This document shows, piece after piece, positions 45,246 through 49,727 of a stretch of DNA of 64,000 bases; within the stretch, counting starts at the first letter, position 1; each line of letters starts with the position of its first letter. Below the pieces are notes generated by a model. The model had not been told where the DNA came from. It saw only the letters and a list, made by a program, of their open reading frames with translations, and searched no databases. The position numbers and the translations under genes were made by a program. Source of the stretch: Pedobacter borealis DSM 19626 (GTDB lineage Bacteria; Bacteroidota; Bacteroidia; Sphingobacteriales; Sphingobacteriaceae); NCBI RefSeq assembly GCF_000708285.2, contig NZ_JAUG01000004.1, positions 1-64,000 on the forward strand, given 5' to 3'.

Positions 45246-46546
45246 TGCCCAAACAGAAAGCCTATTACATCATCGATTTTGATAGTACCTTTACACAGGT
45301 AGAAGCACTTGATGAACTTGCACGAATTTCGCTAAAGAACCACCCAGATAAAGAGGCGATTTTTCAAAAAATTGAAGATTATACCAATTTTGCCATGGAA
45401 GGAAAACTTTCCTTCTCCGAAAGTTTAGCACAACGTGTTAAGCTTCTTGAAGCTAACGAAGATCATTTAAAACAACTCATCAAACATTTGAAAAAGAAAG
45501 TATCTACCTCTTTTTCGCGTAATGCCGAGTTTTTTAAGAAACATGCCGATGAGGTGCTGATTGTTTCTGGCGGATTTAAGGAATTTATTACTCCTGTAGT
45601 GAGCCAATACCACATTAAAAAGGAAAATATTTATGCCAATACCTTTGTAACCACTGGCGATGGTAAAATTATAGATTACGATCATACCAATCCATTAAGT
45701 GAAGAGGGTGGCAAAGTAAAATTACTTCAGCATTTAAAGCTCGAAGGCGAACTATTCGGTATTGGCGATGGGTATTCTGATTTCCAGTTGCGCGAAAGCG
45801 GTATCATCAATAAATTTTTTGCATTTACAGAGAATATAGCCCGTGAAAGTATTGTTTCGAAAGCTGACCATGTAACACCAAGCTTCGACGAGTTTTTGTA
45901 CGTAAACGATCTGCCGCGTGCAATTTCTTATCCTAAAAACAGAATCCTTTGCCTGGTAATTGGTGAAGTTGATCCCTTAACGATTGCTATCCTTAAAAAC
46001 GATGGTTTATCAATTAGGCATAAAACTTCTTTTGAAGATAAATACGTAAAGGATGTGGGAATTATTCTTTTAGCTGATGGCGAAAAAATAAATAAAGAAC
46101 AGTTAAAAAACGCAGCTAAGCTAAAAACTATAGGTTATTTAGGTAATGCGAAAAATAAAATAGACCTCGATTTATGTACCAAACAAGGTATTGTTGTTTT
46201 CGATGACCCTAAAAATAATCCACGTAATATCGATTTTATCCCGAAACGGGTTGCCGATTTTATGAATACCGGAGCAACTTATCTGAGCAGCAATTTCCCT
46301 AACTTACAATTGCCAAAAATTGAGAAATCGCATCGCTTAATTCACATCCACAAAAACGTTCCGGGTATTATGGCGAAAATCAACACTGTTTTTGCCAAGC
46401 ACGACATTAACATTGTGAGCCAGTTTTTAATGACCAATCCTGAGATTGGCTATGCCATTACCGATATCAATGCAGAATACGATAAACAATTGTTTAAATC
46501 GCTTAAAAAGATCGAGCATACCATAAAGTTTAGGGTGCTGTATTAA
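45245..46546 (+). CDS. serB: Phosphoserine phosphatase fused to SerA-like regulatory domains
   Basis: A 433-residue fusion. Residues 1-215 are a HAD phosphatase: DFDST (11-15), SGG (108-110), GDGYSD (174-179). Residues about 232-340 resemble the substrate/ligand domain of 3-phosphoglycerate dehydrogenase without the NAD domain. The end (about 341-433), with FPNLQLPKIEKSHRLIHIHK, IGYAITDI and RVLY, matches the ACT domain and linker of SerA. The last step of serine synthesis would thus carry the serine-sensing part of the first. The layout recurs in Bacteroidota as far as I recall; enzyme function is likely, feedback is inferred. Confidence 0.87.
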   Translation: MPKQKAYYIIDFDSTFTQVEALDELARISLKNHPDKEAIFQKIEDYTNFAMEGKLSFSESLAQRVKLLEANEDHLKQLIKHLKKKVSTSFSRNAEFFKKHADEVLIVSGGFKEFITPVVSQYHIKKENIYANTFVTTGDGKIIDYDHTNPLSEEGGKVKLLQHLKLEGELFGIGDGYSDFQLRESGIINKFFAFTENIARESIVSKADHVTPSFDEFLYVNDLPRAISYPKNRILCLVIGEVDPLTIAILKNDGLSIRHKTSFEDKYVKDVGIILLADGEKINKEQLKNAAKLKTIGYLGNAKNKIDLDLCTKQGIVVFDDPKNNPRNIDFIPKRVADFMNTGATYLSSNFPNLQLPKIEKSHRLIHIHKNVPGIMAKINTVFAKHDINIVSQFLMTNPEIGYAITDINAEYDKQLFKSLKKIEHTIKFRVLY

Positions 46547-46557
46547 TTTTCTCGAAG

Positions 46558-46601
46558 GCTTTGACAACCTTATAGGCTATTTGCCAGTAGGTTGTCAAAG
46601 C
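46558..46601. repeat. RAYT-2 cognate REP hairpin, upstream copy
   Basis: Perfect 13-bp stem GCTTTGACAACCT / AGGTTGTCAAAGC with an 18-base loop, lying between the serB stop codon and the RAYT-2 gene. Confidence 0.85.
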
Positions 46602-46645
46602 TTTTTATAGCCTATTTTTAGTATATTGGTTTATGCAACATTCTT

Positions 46646-47245
46646 ATGGCAAAGACCGAACATTACTATACTAAATTTGAACAAGGAAAATTCTATCACA
46701 TTTATAACCGATCTATAGATAGGCAACCACTTTTTAAATCAGATGCTAATTATAGGTTTTTCCTAAAAAAATTCGATCTATACCTTTCCAATGTTTTAGA
46801 CGTATATGCATATTGTTTATTAGGGAATCATTTTCATCTGCTAATCCGGGTTAAAGAAAGTTTAAAGGCTAATGACCCAATTAGTGAATTTTCAGTGCAT
46901 GATATTGTAAGCAAACAATTCAGAATATTTTTCCAATCATACGCATTGGCATTTAATATCCAGCATAAAAGAATAGGTACATTATTTCAAACGCCATTTA
47001 AACGTGCTCAGATAAACGACGAATCTTATTTTACAAGGCTTGTTTATTATATTCATTCTAATCCTCAAAAGCATAATCTTATTTCCGATTTCAGAGATTG
47101 GAAATGGAGTTCTTACGGTCGGATTCTACTTGAAGCCAATACTAAATTAAAGAAACATTATGTGTTGGATTGGTTTGGTGGAAAAGCAGGATATCTAAAA
47201 TTTCACTCTGACATTCAGGATGGTATCATGTTTGATGAACTTTGA
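46646..47245 (+). CDS. REP-associated tyrosine transposase (RAYT-2, Y1_Tnp)
   Basis: A 199-residue Y1-type single-strand transposase-like protein. It has HFH (His62, His64) in LLGNHFHLLIRV and the catalytic Tyr135 in YYIHSNPQKH, with a downstream DWKWSSYG block. It belongs to a different subgroup from RAYT-1 (N-terminal FYHIYNRSIDRQPLF). Hairpins of a single family surround it (46558, 47239, 47293), and their stems differ completely from those of RAYT-1. The gene looks intact. Confidence 0.9.
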   Translation: MAKTEHYYTKFEQGKFYHIYNRSIDRQPLFKSDANYRFFLKKFDLYLSNVLDVYAYCLLGNHFHLLIRVKESLKANDPISEFSVHDIVSKQFRIFFQSYALAFNIQHKRIGTLFQTPFKRAQINDESYFTRLVYYIHSNPQKHNLISDFRDWKWSSYGRILLEANTKLKKHYVLDWFGGKAGYLKFHSDIQDGIMFDEL

Positions 47246-47339
47246 CAGCCTTCTTTGCAAATCTCTAGAAGATTGTCAAAACCAATTCGATAAGCTTTGA
47301 CAACCTTACAGGCCTCTTGTTGAGAAGGTTGTCAAAGCT
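47239..47339. repeat. RAYT-2 cognate REP hairpins, downstream pair
   Basis: A degenerate copy (CTTTGACAGCCTT...GATTGTCAAA, about 47239-47281) is followed by a perfect one: AGCTTTGACAACCTT / AAGGTTGTCAAAGCT (47293-47307 and 47325-47339). The latter overlaps the stop codon of the CLC gene on the minus strand, so it may also end that transcript. Confidence 0.8.
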
Positions 47340-48615
47340 ATCTCAAAAACTGATGCCTCTTCAACAACAAATGCTTAGGTGCACCTATCGTTTGCGACCG
47401 ATAAATTCCCGTATGGCCTGAAAATAAGTAAGCAGTAACACAGGCTAAGGCGATATAAATTCCCGATGAGGTACCAAATAGCTCTACGCCCATAAAAATA
47501 CAGGCCAAAGGGGTGTTCGCTGCCCCTGCAAAAACAGCCACAAAGCCCATTCCTGCCAACAGTCCAAGAGGTAAGGGGATAAAGAAACTCAAAAAACTAC
47601 CCAGTGTGGCCCCAATAAAGAAAAGTGGAGTAACTTCACCGCCCTTAAACCCTGCACTCAGGGTAAATGCTGTTAAAAATAATTTGATCGCAAATGTATA
47701 ATACGCTTCTTGTTGAACAAAGGATTCTGAAATAACCGGAATGCCCAAGCCGATATATCGTGTATTTCCGATCAGGTAAATAATACCAATTAAAACTAGT
47801 CCACCAATAAATGGCCTTAATGGTGGGTATTTGATTTTACTGAAAAGACTTGATAAGCCATGGTTTAAGGCTGAAAAAGATCTTGCCACCAGTCCAAATA
47901 GTATTCCTGCACCTAAGGATAACAGTAAATTGATCGAATTCATTTCCGGCACCAGAGAAATGGAATAATGGGTATGCCCAACACCCCAGCTTTTGCAGGC
48001 ATAATCGGCAATAATTGCAGTAATAAATGAAGGAAGAATGGAACTATAGGTTAAACTTCCAATAACGAAAACTTCCAATCCGAATACTGCGCCTGCCAAT
48101 GGTGTCCCGAAAACAGAGGCAAAGCCAGCACTGATCCCGCAGATGAGGATCACTTTTCGATCTCTGGCTTTAAGTTTAAACAGTTTCGTAAACTGGTCGG
48201 CAAAGGCTCCTCCAATTTGCACAGCTGTACCCTCTCTTCCAGCCGAGCCGCCAAATAAATGGGTAATAATCGTGCCTGCAAAAATGAGTGGCGCCATAAT
48301 CAGCGGAATCACATTTTTGGGCGATTGTAATTCCTCAATCAAGAGGTTGTTGCCCTTTACAACGGCTGCACCCCAGTAATGGTAAGCCAGGCCAATGAGT
48401 ATACCGGCAATTGGTAAAAAGGCGATAATCCAGAGGTGTTGTTCACGGTAATTGGTTGCCCAGTTTAAAGTTTCTAAAAACAGGGCAGAGGCAGAGCCTA
48501 TAATCCCACCCAATATTGCAGAAATCAACAGCCACTTTAATGTGCTAATTAAGAGTAATCTGAAGTCGAGTTTAATAAACAGAAGAAATCCTTCTGTTAG
48601 TTTTTTAACAGGCAT
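47338..48615 (-). CDS. CLC-F type fluoride/proton antiporter
   Basis: A 425-residue CLC membrane protein. The gating-Glu motif is GREGT (126-130). The helix-D GSGIP motif of chloride transporters is replaced by KGNNLL (87-92), and the GxFxP motif reads GGEVTP (325-330). These changes mark the fluoride-exporting CLC-F branch. A fluoride riboswitch sits directly upstream, which supports the same conclusion independently. Transport of fluoride out in exchange for protons is the expected role. The stop codon overlaps a RAYT-2 hairpin. It is usually annotated as a voltage-gated chloride channel. Confidence 0.9.
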   Translation of the reverse strand: MPVKKLTEGFLLFIKLDFRLLLISTLKWLLISAILGGIIGSASALFLETLNWATNYREQHLWIIAFLPIAGILIGLAYHYWGAAVVKGNNLLIEELQSPKNVIPLIMAPLIFAGTIITHLFGGSAGREGTAVQIGGAFADQFTKLFKLKARDRKVILICGISAGFASVFGTPLAGAVFGLEVFVIGSLTYSSILPSFITAIIADYACKSWGVGHTHYSISLVPEMNSINLLLSLGAGILFGLVARSFSALNHGLSSLFSKIKYPPLRPFIGGLVLIGIIYLIGNTRYIGLGIPVISESFVQQEAYYTFAIKLFLTAFTLSAGFKGGEVTPLFFIGATLGSFLSFFIPLPLGLLAGMGFVAVFAGAANTPLACIFMGVELFGTSSGIYIALACVTAYLFSGHTGIYRSQTIGAPKHLLLKRHQFLR

Positions 48616-48640
48616 TTGAATTCAATTTTAAATAAAAATC

Positions 48641-48688
48641 GTAGGAGTCATCAGCCTGTTTGGGCGGTTTTGGCGGTACTCCATCGCC
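48641..48688 (-). ncRNA. Fluoride riboswitch (crcB motif)
   Basis: On the minus strand the 48 bases start GGCGATGGAGTACCGCC and end GGCTGATGACTCCTAC, the two conserved halves of the crcB motif. GGCG pairs with CGCC, GCC with GGC across CAAACA, and GGAGT with ACTCC. It lies 25 bases before the ATG of the CLC-F gene and starts within a few bases of the predicted transcription start. The expression platform is not obvious: there is a short T-rich stretch and a TTGAATTCAA palindrome before the ATG. Confidence 0.92.
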
Positions 48689-48695
48689 ATTGTCC

Positions 48696-48727
48696 CAAAT
48701 GTATAAAATTTAGTTATTTGTTGCAAA
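48696..48727 (-). promoter_or_regulatory. Promoter of the riboswitch-antiporter unit
   Basis: On the minus strand TTTG (48727-48724) and TACATTTG (48703-48696) are separated by 20 bases, a full Bacteroidota consensus promoter. Transcription would start around 48691, so the leader is essentially the riboswitch plus 25 bases. Confidence 0.8.
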
Positions 48728-48761
48728 ATCTTTATCACCTTTGTGCAGCTAACTTTAAACC

Positions 48762-49727
48762 ATGGATTTTACACCCGAAATAAAAGACAAACTACATCAA
48801 CTGCAAGAAAAGTATACGGCAATGGGGCAAGATATGGCATCGTACCTCGATGGACTCTTATATGCCGATTTCTTAACCTATTGGGACTACATTCATTTGG
48901 ATACTTTGCTGAGCTTACAGAATCCTAAAACACCCATTCCGGATGAAGAGATTTTCATTATGTACCATCAAATCACGGAACTTTATTTTAAGCTTGCACT
49001 GCACGAATGCAGGCAGATTGCTGAACATGAAAATTTAACCGCCGAATTTTTTACTGCACGCGTAAAACGGATCAACGCTTATTTCAATGCCTTAACCACT
49101 TCTTTCGAGGTGATGGTTGATGGTATGGAGAAAGAGCAGTTCCTGAAATTCCGCATGTCGTTATTGCCTGCCAGTGGATTCCAATCTGGCCAGTACCGGA
49201 TGATCGAGATCTGTGCTACAGATTTTATCCAATTGGTAGATAAAAGCAAACGCGAAGAACTAAGTACTGCAACAATAGAAGAACAATTCGAAAATATTTA
49301 CTGGAAATTCGGTGCAACCGAGCTGTCTTCGGGTAAGCAAACTTTAACCTTAAAGCAATTTATTAAAAAGTATGCTGCTCAGTTTCTACAACTGGCTAAA
49401 GATCGCACCTTAACTAATTTTTCTGCTTTATACCATCAATTGCAAGCGAATGGAGCCGATGTTTCTGCCCTTGCAGAGGAGTTGCGTAAGTTAGATTTGT
49501 ATGTAAATGTAGAATGGCCTTTATCGCACTACAAATCGGCCGTACGTTATTTGGAGAAAGATCCGGTTGATATTGCAGCAACAGGTGGAACCAACTGGCA
49601 AAAGTATCTGCCTCCGCGTTTTCAGAAGAGAATCTTTTATCCGTTCTTATGGACCGGTGAGCAAATAGAAGAGTGGGGTAAAGGTTGGGTGCTTAGTGTA
49701 CTTAAAACACTCAAAAACAAAGATTAA
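48762..49727 (+). CDS. kynA: Tryptophan 2,3-dioxygenase family protein
   Basis: A 321-residue helical heme dioxygenase, first step of tryptophan degradation to kynurenine. Recognisable: IMYHQITELYFKL (substrate-pocket His near 68), FRMSLLPASGFQSGQYRMIE, and late SHYKSAVRYL with ATGGTNW, where the axial heme His is expected in SHY. Other kynurenine genes are not in the window. Divergent from the riboswitch unit. Confidence 0.9.
   Translation: MDFTPEIKDKLHQLQEKYTAMGQDMASYLDGLLYADFLTYWDYIHLDTLLSLQNPKTPIPDEEIFIMYHQITELYFKLALHECRQIAEHENLTAEFFTARVKRINAYFNALTTSFEVMVDGMEKEQFLKFRMSLLPASGFQSGQYRMIEICATDFIQLVDKSKREELSTATIEEQFENIYWKFGATELSSGKQTLTLKQFIKKYAAQFLQLAKDRTLTNFSALYHQLQANGADVSALAEELRKLDLYVNVEWPLSHYKSAVRYLEKDPVDIAATGGTNWQKYLPPRFQKRIFYPFLWTGEQIEEWGKGWVLSVLKTLKNKD

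Follow-up and report, generated by a model that had tools for sequence, protein, structure and literature searches.

The fluoride riboswitch and the CLC-F antiporter gene that lie on the minus strand of the 64,000-nucleotide stretch of Pedobacter borealis DNA analysed here (the window) are probably a fluoride-induced export unit under translational control, with the control located partly in the coding sequence, where the start codon and codons 2 and 3 would take one strand of the aptamer helix P3. That a fluoride riboswitch and a CLC-F gene form a unit is known biology, and both the aptamer and the exporter are ordinary members of their kinds; the new part, of a type that we did not find described, is the expression platform. 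We infer the inhibitory helix between the P3 strand and the start region (the OFF helix) from the conservation of both strands together, the constraint on synonymous sites, the computed folds and the difference from other aptamer loci. An earlier interpretation of this DNA made from the letters alone (the sequence-only reading) had left the mode of control open, and the present proposal gives it a specific form.

A Rfam search of the whole window placed the fluoride aptamer (RF01734) at 48697-48635 on the minus strand, with a score of 56.8 bits (the gathering score is 34 bits) and an E value of 4.3e-13 over model positions 1 to 64 of 64. RF01734 was the sole Rfam family above its gathering score within the window, and this was the only match to it found across the 5.5-Mb genome, with no second aptamer. 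The covariance-model result bears out the sequence-only reading, which had recognized a fluoride riboswitch in the leader and had described the halves of the crcB motif as complete and pairing: P1 (GGCG at 48688-48685 with CGCC at 48675-48672, seen in both the covariance match and the alignment), the pseudoknot (GGAGU at 48682-48678 with ACUCC at 48648-48644, seen in the alignment) and P3 of the ON state (GCC at 48665-48663 with GGC at 48656-48654) are all complete. In the alignment of 50 orthologous leaders, 100% of cells are paired in all three elements, the middle pair of P3 having alignment gaps in 5 sequences. The fluoride site within the aptamer adjoins P3. Homology thus makes a strong case that the leader is a fluoride riboswitch. 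Among genomes drawn from the order, 202 of 300 have an RF01734 match (197 above the cut-off), and among those drawn from the phylum the count is 55 of 395 (46 above the cut-off).

A Bacteroidota-type promoter, TTTG-N20-TACATTTG, whose elements are named -33 and -7, lies at 48727-48696. Within the window by itself, its occurrence is not significant (5 matches where 2.45 are expected, with as many in 14 of 100 shuffles), but the same pattern stands 6 to 7 bases upstream of P1 in all 50 orthologous leaders; the claim that the riboswitch has its own consensus promoter holds. The extent that had been assigned to the switch ended too early, as the proposed start-codon helix would reach 48607 and a further hairpin 48578, both inside the coding sequence.

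The open reading frame at 48615-47338 encodes a 425-residue CLC protein (Pfam Voltage_CLC, E 1.2e-69). Judged against solved structures only, it is much nearer to the CLC-F protein Eca (6d0j; E 4.8e-62, query residues 30-410) than to Escherichia coli ClcA (3ejz; E 1.2e-8, far weaker), and it contains the three CLC-F signatures KGNNLL, GREGT and GGEVTP, so that the earlier assignment to the CLC-F type is upheld. GREG and GGEVTP are common to both this protein and Eca CLC-F, whereas Eca has QGMNLV in place of KGNNLL; the part of a review cited here gives the signatures as GNNLI or GMGLI, GREGT or GREGV, and GEVTP (PMC11139923). By homology, there is a strong case that the gene product is a CLC-F fluoride/proton antiporter. 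The genome has three CLC genes, and a motif pattern found CLC-F signatures in only the riboswitch-led one; crcB was sought in the genome and was not found. On these gene contents, the riboswitch-led CLC-F is probably the main fluoride exporter of this soil bacterium. Its divergent neighbour is a tryptophan 2,3-dioxygenase-like gene (Pfam E 9.4e-22), and just downstream lies a REP-associated tyrosine transposase-like gene (46646-47345; NCBIfam 61.4 bits, below the cut-off of 80) that adjoins long inverted repeats at 47239-47345 (fold -40.4 kcal/mol).

The 5' strand of the proposed OFF helix is AACAGGC (48660-48654), which comprises the P3 loop and 3' arm, and the 3' strand is GCCUGUU (48613-48607), which comprises the G of the AUG and codons 2 and 3. 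When the window leader was folded with the pseudoknot left out, these strands paired with each other at 0.86 to 1.0 per base for codons 2 and 3. Over 48 leaders, the mean ViennaRNA probability of the six inner pairs was 0.96, exceeding 0.9 in 45 and 0.5 in 47, with the weakest pairing in L094 (0.29), followed by L002 and L125 (0.75 each). The OFF helix draws on four bases of the loop as well as on the 3' arm of P3, so it would exclude P3 and hence the ligand-binding fold. Bases -3 to +9 were unpaired at an average of 0.31 in the free ensembles of the 48 leaders versus 0.66 when the aptamer was enforced (P1 and P3 paired, pseudoknot bases held unpaired), the lowest enforced value being 0.36 (L006), so that some leaders remain partly closed.

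Mean energies were -28.0 kcal/mol for the free fold and, with only nested pairs counted, -21.8 for the aptamer fold, a figure that leaves out the pseudoknot duplex of -4.5 to -5.4; the two states may thus lie within 1 to 2 kcal/mol of each other, as a ligand-tipped switch would need, although these energetics are rough and the ViennaRNA folds leave out both pseudoknot and ligand. In 15 of the 48 leaders the pseudoknot strand pairs somewhat with the start region too. In stepwise folds of the window leader, RNAs that ended just before or just after the AUG contained P3, a different fold was seen three bases later, and the OFF helix formed as soon as codon 3 was included in full.

The ortholog set comprises 50 CLC-F places with at least 74% identity, obtained by searching 145 genomes of the genus with the protein. 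Of these, 48 leaders had been picked in aptamer searches with a pattern in which part of the aptamer, CAGGC included, is fixed; the other two, from G746 (L171) and G739 (L218), also have both strands, so no close ortholog from the protein search was omitted. The 48 leaders underlie the analysis of four-fold degenerate columns, the folding probabilities and the comparison of P3 with pseudoknot pairing, and all 50 were used for promoter spacing, covariation, the pseudoknot-strand test, helix cells, codon-pair energies and the spacer hairpin. The 50 sequences have a single common origin. Each has the aptamer, with ACAGGC in its P3, as well as the start ATGCCTGTT, and in every one the P3 strand is complementary to the start codon and codons 2 and 3. 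Six of the seven pairs of the OFF helix are invariant and the remaining one is A-U or G-U, and with so little variation covariation is uninformative about this helix.

Among 48 genes, 65 to 98% identical over the compared part, 56 four-fold degenerate columns encode a conserved amino acid, with a median codon entropy of 1.66 bits; just two columns never change codon, and these are codons 2 and 3 (CCT and GTT), with no synonymous change in either. If columns are taken as exchangeable, the chance of the invariant pair being exactly codons 2 and 3 is 1 in 1540. In the neighbouring dioxygenase-like gene, none of 15 columns is invariant (45 sequences), and some near-start bias is seen there, codon 4 being ACA in 40 of 45; this control uses 45, 49 and 50 sequences, 5 of the 50 loci being absent where the start pattern missed the gene. 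In silico, each of the three other proline codons at codon 2 of the window leader breaks the pairing (at most 0.38, versus 0.99), and GTA or GTG at codon 3 leaves it at 0.98, so the fold alone does not account for the fixed third base of codon 3. Among the 16 synonymous pairs, the native codon pair has the lowest energy in 42 of 50 leaders, not being the optimum in 8, and the highest pairing in 41.

Codons 2 to 4 (CUGUUA) might instead be constrained by pairing with codons 6 to 8 (UAACAG), or by another function at the start site or at the DNA level, with the complementarity to P3 a by-product and fluoride acting by some other route. CUGUUA can indeed pair with codons 5 to 8 at five or six of six positions in 45 of 50 leaders; GTA and GTG never occur at codon 3, although they would keep the OFF helix in silico; and the near-start bias of the neighbouring gene points the same way. 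Against this, five orthologs (L022, L069, L120, L127 and L137) match at only four of six positions and still have CCTGTT unchanged, and the explanation leaves unaccounted for the ACAGGC of the P3 loop, which is fixed in the 50 loci and absent from 109 others. We regard it as improbable and favour constraint by the OFF helix.

Downstream of the OFF helix, codons 6 to 13 can form a hairpin, AACAGAAG-GAUUU-CUUCUGUU (48598-48578), that is suggested by both fold and covariation: in the alignment of 50 sequences, five of its eight pairs have changed on both sides and 80.3% of cells pair, although the outermost pair forms in only 3 sequences. None of 500 shuffles attained the covariation score of the complete structure, a count that is not a probability. 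The hairpin hides UAACAG, the second complement of CUGUUA, and in the enforced ON fold without its 3' arm, start accessibility fell from 0.65 to 0.50, with a drop in 49 of 50 leaders. In these folds, the coding hairpin may act as an insulator of the opened start. The hairpin alone admits another explanation, namely that it is conserved as a weak-looking plus-strand terminator (the hairpin, then AGTTTTTTAA) that shields the divergent dioxygenase gene from antisense transcription. A terminator search did record the site 48578-48598 on the plus strand, and covariation cannot distinguish the two strands, but shuffles of the region give 2.8 such sites where one was found, and, as noted, removal of the hairpin's 3' arm leaves the start less accessible in the enforced ON fold of 49 leaders out of 50. 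This explanation seems to us somewhat unlikely, and we retain the insulator as a tentative role.

A second small hairpin, CGAUUUU-UAUUU-AAAAUUG (48641-48623), occupies the spacer between aptamer and AUG. It has the form C(G/A)AUUU(U)-loop-(A)AAAUUG, with loops of 3 to 5 nucleotides and variable sequence, is closed in 49 of 50 leaders, lies 5 to 7 nucleotides upstream of the AUG (7 in 41 of 50) and is predicted in both states. Its first base is the final C of the aptamer core (CUAC), and one can picture fluoride pulling the closing C-G pair into the aptamer, so that the hairpin melts and the ribosome binds. Its near-universal closure, changing loops and closeness to the AUG fit such a platform. 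It is weak, however (0 to -1.8 kcal/mol), it persists in the enforced-aptamer fold of the leaders inspected except L144 and, shifted, L140, and it leaves the fixed codons 2 and 3 unexplained. As the sole platform it was rejected, being weak and mostly present in both states, and we give this mechanism very little credence.

Control by transcription also has to be weighed, for example by Rho-dependent termination early in the untranslated gene, with or without the start-codon helix. Those fluoride riboswitches that have been studied act on transcription in the parts of the reports cited (PMC13273304, PMC11077080), and Rho is reported to be linked to other translational riboswitches. On the other side, a search of 46500-49500 gave no terminator-like site on the strand of the gene, and in all 50 leaders no strand upstream of the AUG is directed at the pseudoknot. 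The sequence-only reading had likewise judged that the expression platform is not a clear terminator. Terminator control was accordingly rejected, and control at the level of transcription strikes us as quite improbable beside the translational control that we propose. A pseudoknot-directed strand as the platform was rejected too, such strands being absent from the 50 leaders and common elsewhere.

The two strands do not recur at other aptamer loci. ACAGGCTGATG occurs in the aptamer of 0 of 109 other loci, and ATGCCTGT within 80 nucleotides in 0 of 109 (L052 and L053 excluded). At many of these loci a strand near the start codon is instead complementary to the 3' strand of the pseudoknot, as in CCUACAAUA/UAUUGUAGG, CCUGAUUA/UAAUCAGG and UCCUGUACAU/AUGUACAGGA; a strict ungapped test detects such a strand at 59 of the 108 other loci that it covered, and in none of the 50 leaders of the window's group upstream of the AUG. 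By pairing probability, P3 is a partner of the start region in 46 of 48 leaders of the window's group versus 8 of 108 other loci, and the pseudoknot strand is one in 84 of the 108; the 8 include L050, which itself has a pseudoknot-directed strand. The other loci are not independent, seven of them (L029, L030 and L032-L036) having an identical leader, and their start codons in the pairing comparison were chosen by a simple ORF rule. L039, L052 and L053, which are cut off or below the family score, were excluded from the pseudoknot-strand and pairing comparisons; in L039 (genome G054), the aptamer is followed by adapter-like sequence, which we take to be a sequencing adapter, and then by a long G run, an assembly artefact.

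The full arrangement was found in all 24 named Pedobacter loci, which overlap the genus genome set and so are not independent evidence, and in none of 4 more distant loci whose genes are 47 to 60% identical (Paenibacillus, two Ferruginibacter and Flavobacterium). Within the genus, CLC-F genes 57 to 62% identical to that of the window (L048-L051) have the pseudoknot-directed design, and thus two platforms serve related genes on one aptamer class. For the second kind of aptamer in the genus (GGAAATGGTGT...GCGCCTAC), the idea of a different ligand was dropped, since most such leaders precede CLC-F and the island loci precede a CLC-F-containing operon.

These island loci, L057-L061 (in G003, G036, G021, G046 and G027), share a block of at least 5 to 9 kb that is 99.0 to 99.96% identical across five genomes classed as different species. 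The block (from about 10241 in L057) encodes a DUF326 protein and includes a fluoride aptamer, followed by genes that include those for a small membrane protein lacking any Pfam match, EamA, enolase, a second CLC-F and DUF202. The block has the look of a mobile island for fluoride resistance that carries a spare enolase, enolase being a known fluoride target in the part of the review cited (PMC11139923). A CLC-F of the same frame length, 49 to 50% identical to that of the window, is present in 19 of the 145 genus genomes.

Other CLC-F genes of the genus have no aptamer. Six of them (L201, L202, L204, L205, L210 and L211) have a short leader after TATATTTG, and most of these leaders contain a small hairpin (for example AGCCUG...CAGGCU or AGCCUU...AAGGCU) just before the AUG, possibly another regulatory element. 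L207 and L208, and similarly L200 and L206, have no recognised aptamer, and in them repeated CATGGAC or GTGGAC, perhaps operator sites, is followed by TATATTTG, which resembles a promoter and lies only a few bases from the start. When 19 stretches upstream of CLC-F genes were scanned with Rfam, nothing credible emerged, with six weak matches to microRNA families far below the cut-offs.

We propose the following mechanism for the window's switch. The promoter would give a leader of roughly 75 nucleotides that is nearly all fluoride aptamer. During transcription, P1, P3 and the pseudoknot could form first, GCCUGUU emerging about 34 nucleotides later. Where fluoride does not lock the aptamer, GCCUGUU would gain a foothold on the AACA that is unpaired in the P3 loop and would displace the 3-bp P3, and the resulting 7-bp helix would trap the start codon and dismantle the aptamer (OFF). 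With fluoride bound, P3 would stay closed and the start region open, and CLC-F would be made and would expel the fluoride (ON). The AU hairpin before the AUG would shorten the spacer in both states, and the hairpin over codons 6 to 13 may hold the second complementary strand (UAACAG) off codons 2 to 4.

The wider reading, that the whole switch, from the transcription start to codon 13, is a single RNA device spanning untranslated and coding sequence, seems to us rather likely, if held with some reserve. In such a device the P3 loop would serve as the foothold, codons 1 to 3 as the invading strand and the coding hairpin as the insulator of the opened start; it would permit a riboswitch to act on translation in a phylum that lacks Shine-Dalgarno sequences, and it would replace the pseudoknot-directed platform found on related CLC-F genes of one genus. 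If the proposal is correct, a single synonymous change in codon 2 should render the exporter constitutive, an aptamer can draw its switching strand from sense codons, a riboswitch can be carried by synonymous sites, and platforms can differ among related genes while the aptamer class and the gene stay unchanged.

Riboswitch control of translation seems to have been little described in Bacteroidota. A literature search, which left most subscription journals outside its reach, found nothing that combined Pedobacter, fluoride and riboswitch, and no sense-codon switching strand for a fluoride riboswitch. As far as the cited part of one study goes, Bacteroidota mRNAs have no Shine-Dalgarno sequence, and initiation in Flavobacterium is tuned by structure from -20 to +20 (PMC6847099); to hide the start codon itself would thus be a reasonable way to switch. 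Elsewhere in the Bacteroidota, and at other CLC-F genes of the genus, fluoride riboswitches have the same aptamer class, stand mostly before CLC-F or crcB-type genes and are apparently translational, but in them a strand upstream of the AUG pairs with the 3' strand of the pseudoknot, and the window's group has no such strand.

Silencing through P3 and the first codons is probably unlike the fluoride switches so far studied. The transcriptional riboswitches of Bacillus cereus and Thermotoga petrophila have the same P1, P3 and pseudoknot, and there too a downstream strand takes an aptamer strand; in the parts of the reports cited, however, a competing terminator stem takes the pseudoknot strand (PMC13273304, PMC11077080), whereas the strand proposed here takes P3, sits in codons 1 to 3 and would hide the start codon. 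The window leader does not fit the terminator platform, as the gene's strand has no terminator-like site and none of the 50 leaders has, upstream of the AUG, a complement of the pseudoknot 3' strand. Expression platforms have been modelled for terminators in one of these reports, the cited part of which mentions the translational fluoride riboswitches of Burkholderia pseudomallei and Pseudomonas syringae as controls (PMC13273304). A likeness is also found in the add adenine riboswitch of Vibrio vulnificus, a translational ON switch in which, according to the part of the source cited, a sequester hairpin conceals the AUG when ligand is absent (PMC10907184), and the AUG would be hidden here too; in add, however, the ribosome-binding site is hidden too, whereas the strand in the window would consist of the start codon and sense codons 2 and 3, with no Shine-Dalgarno sequence.
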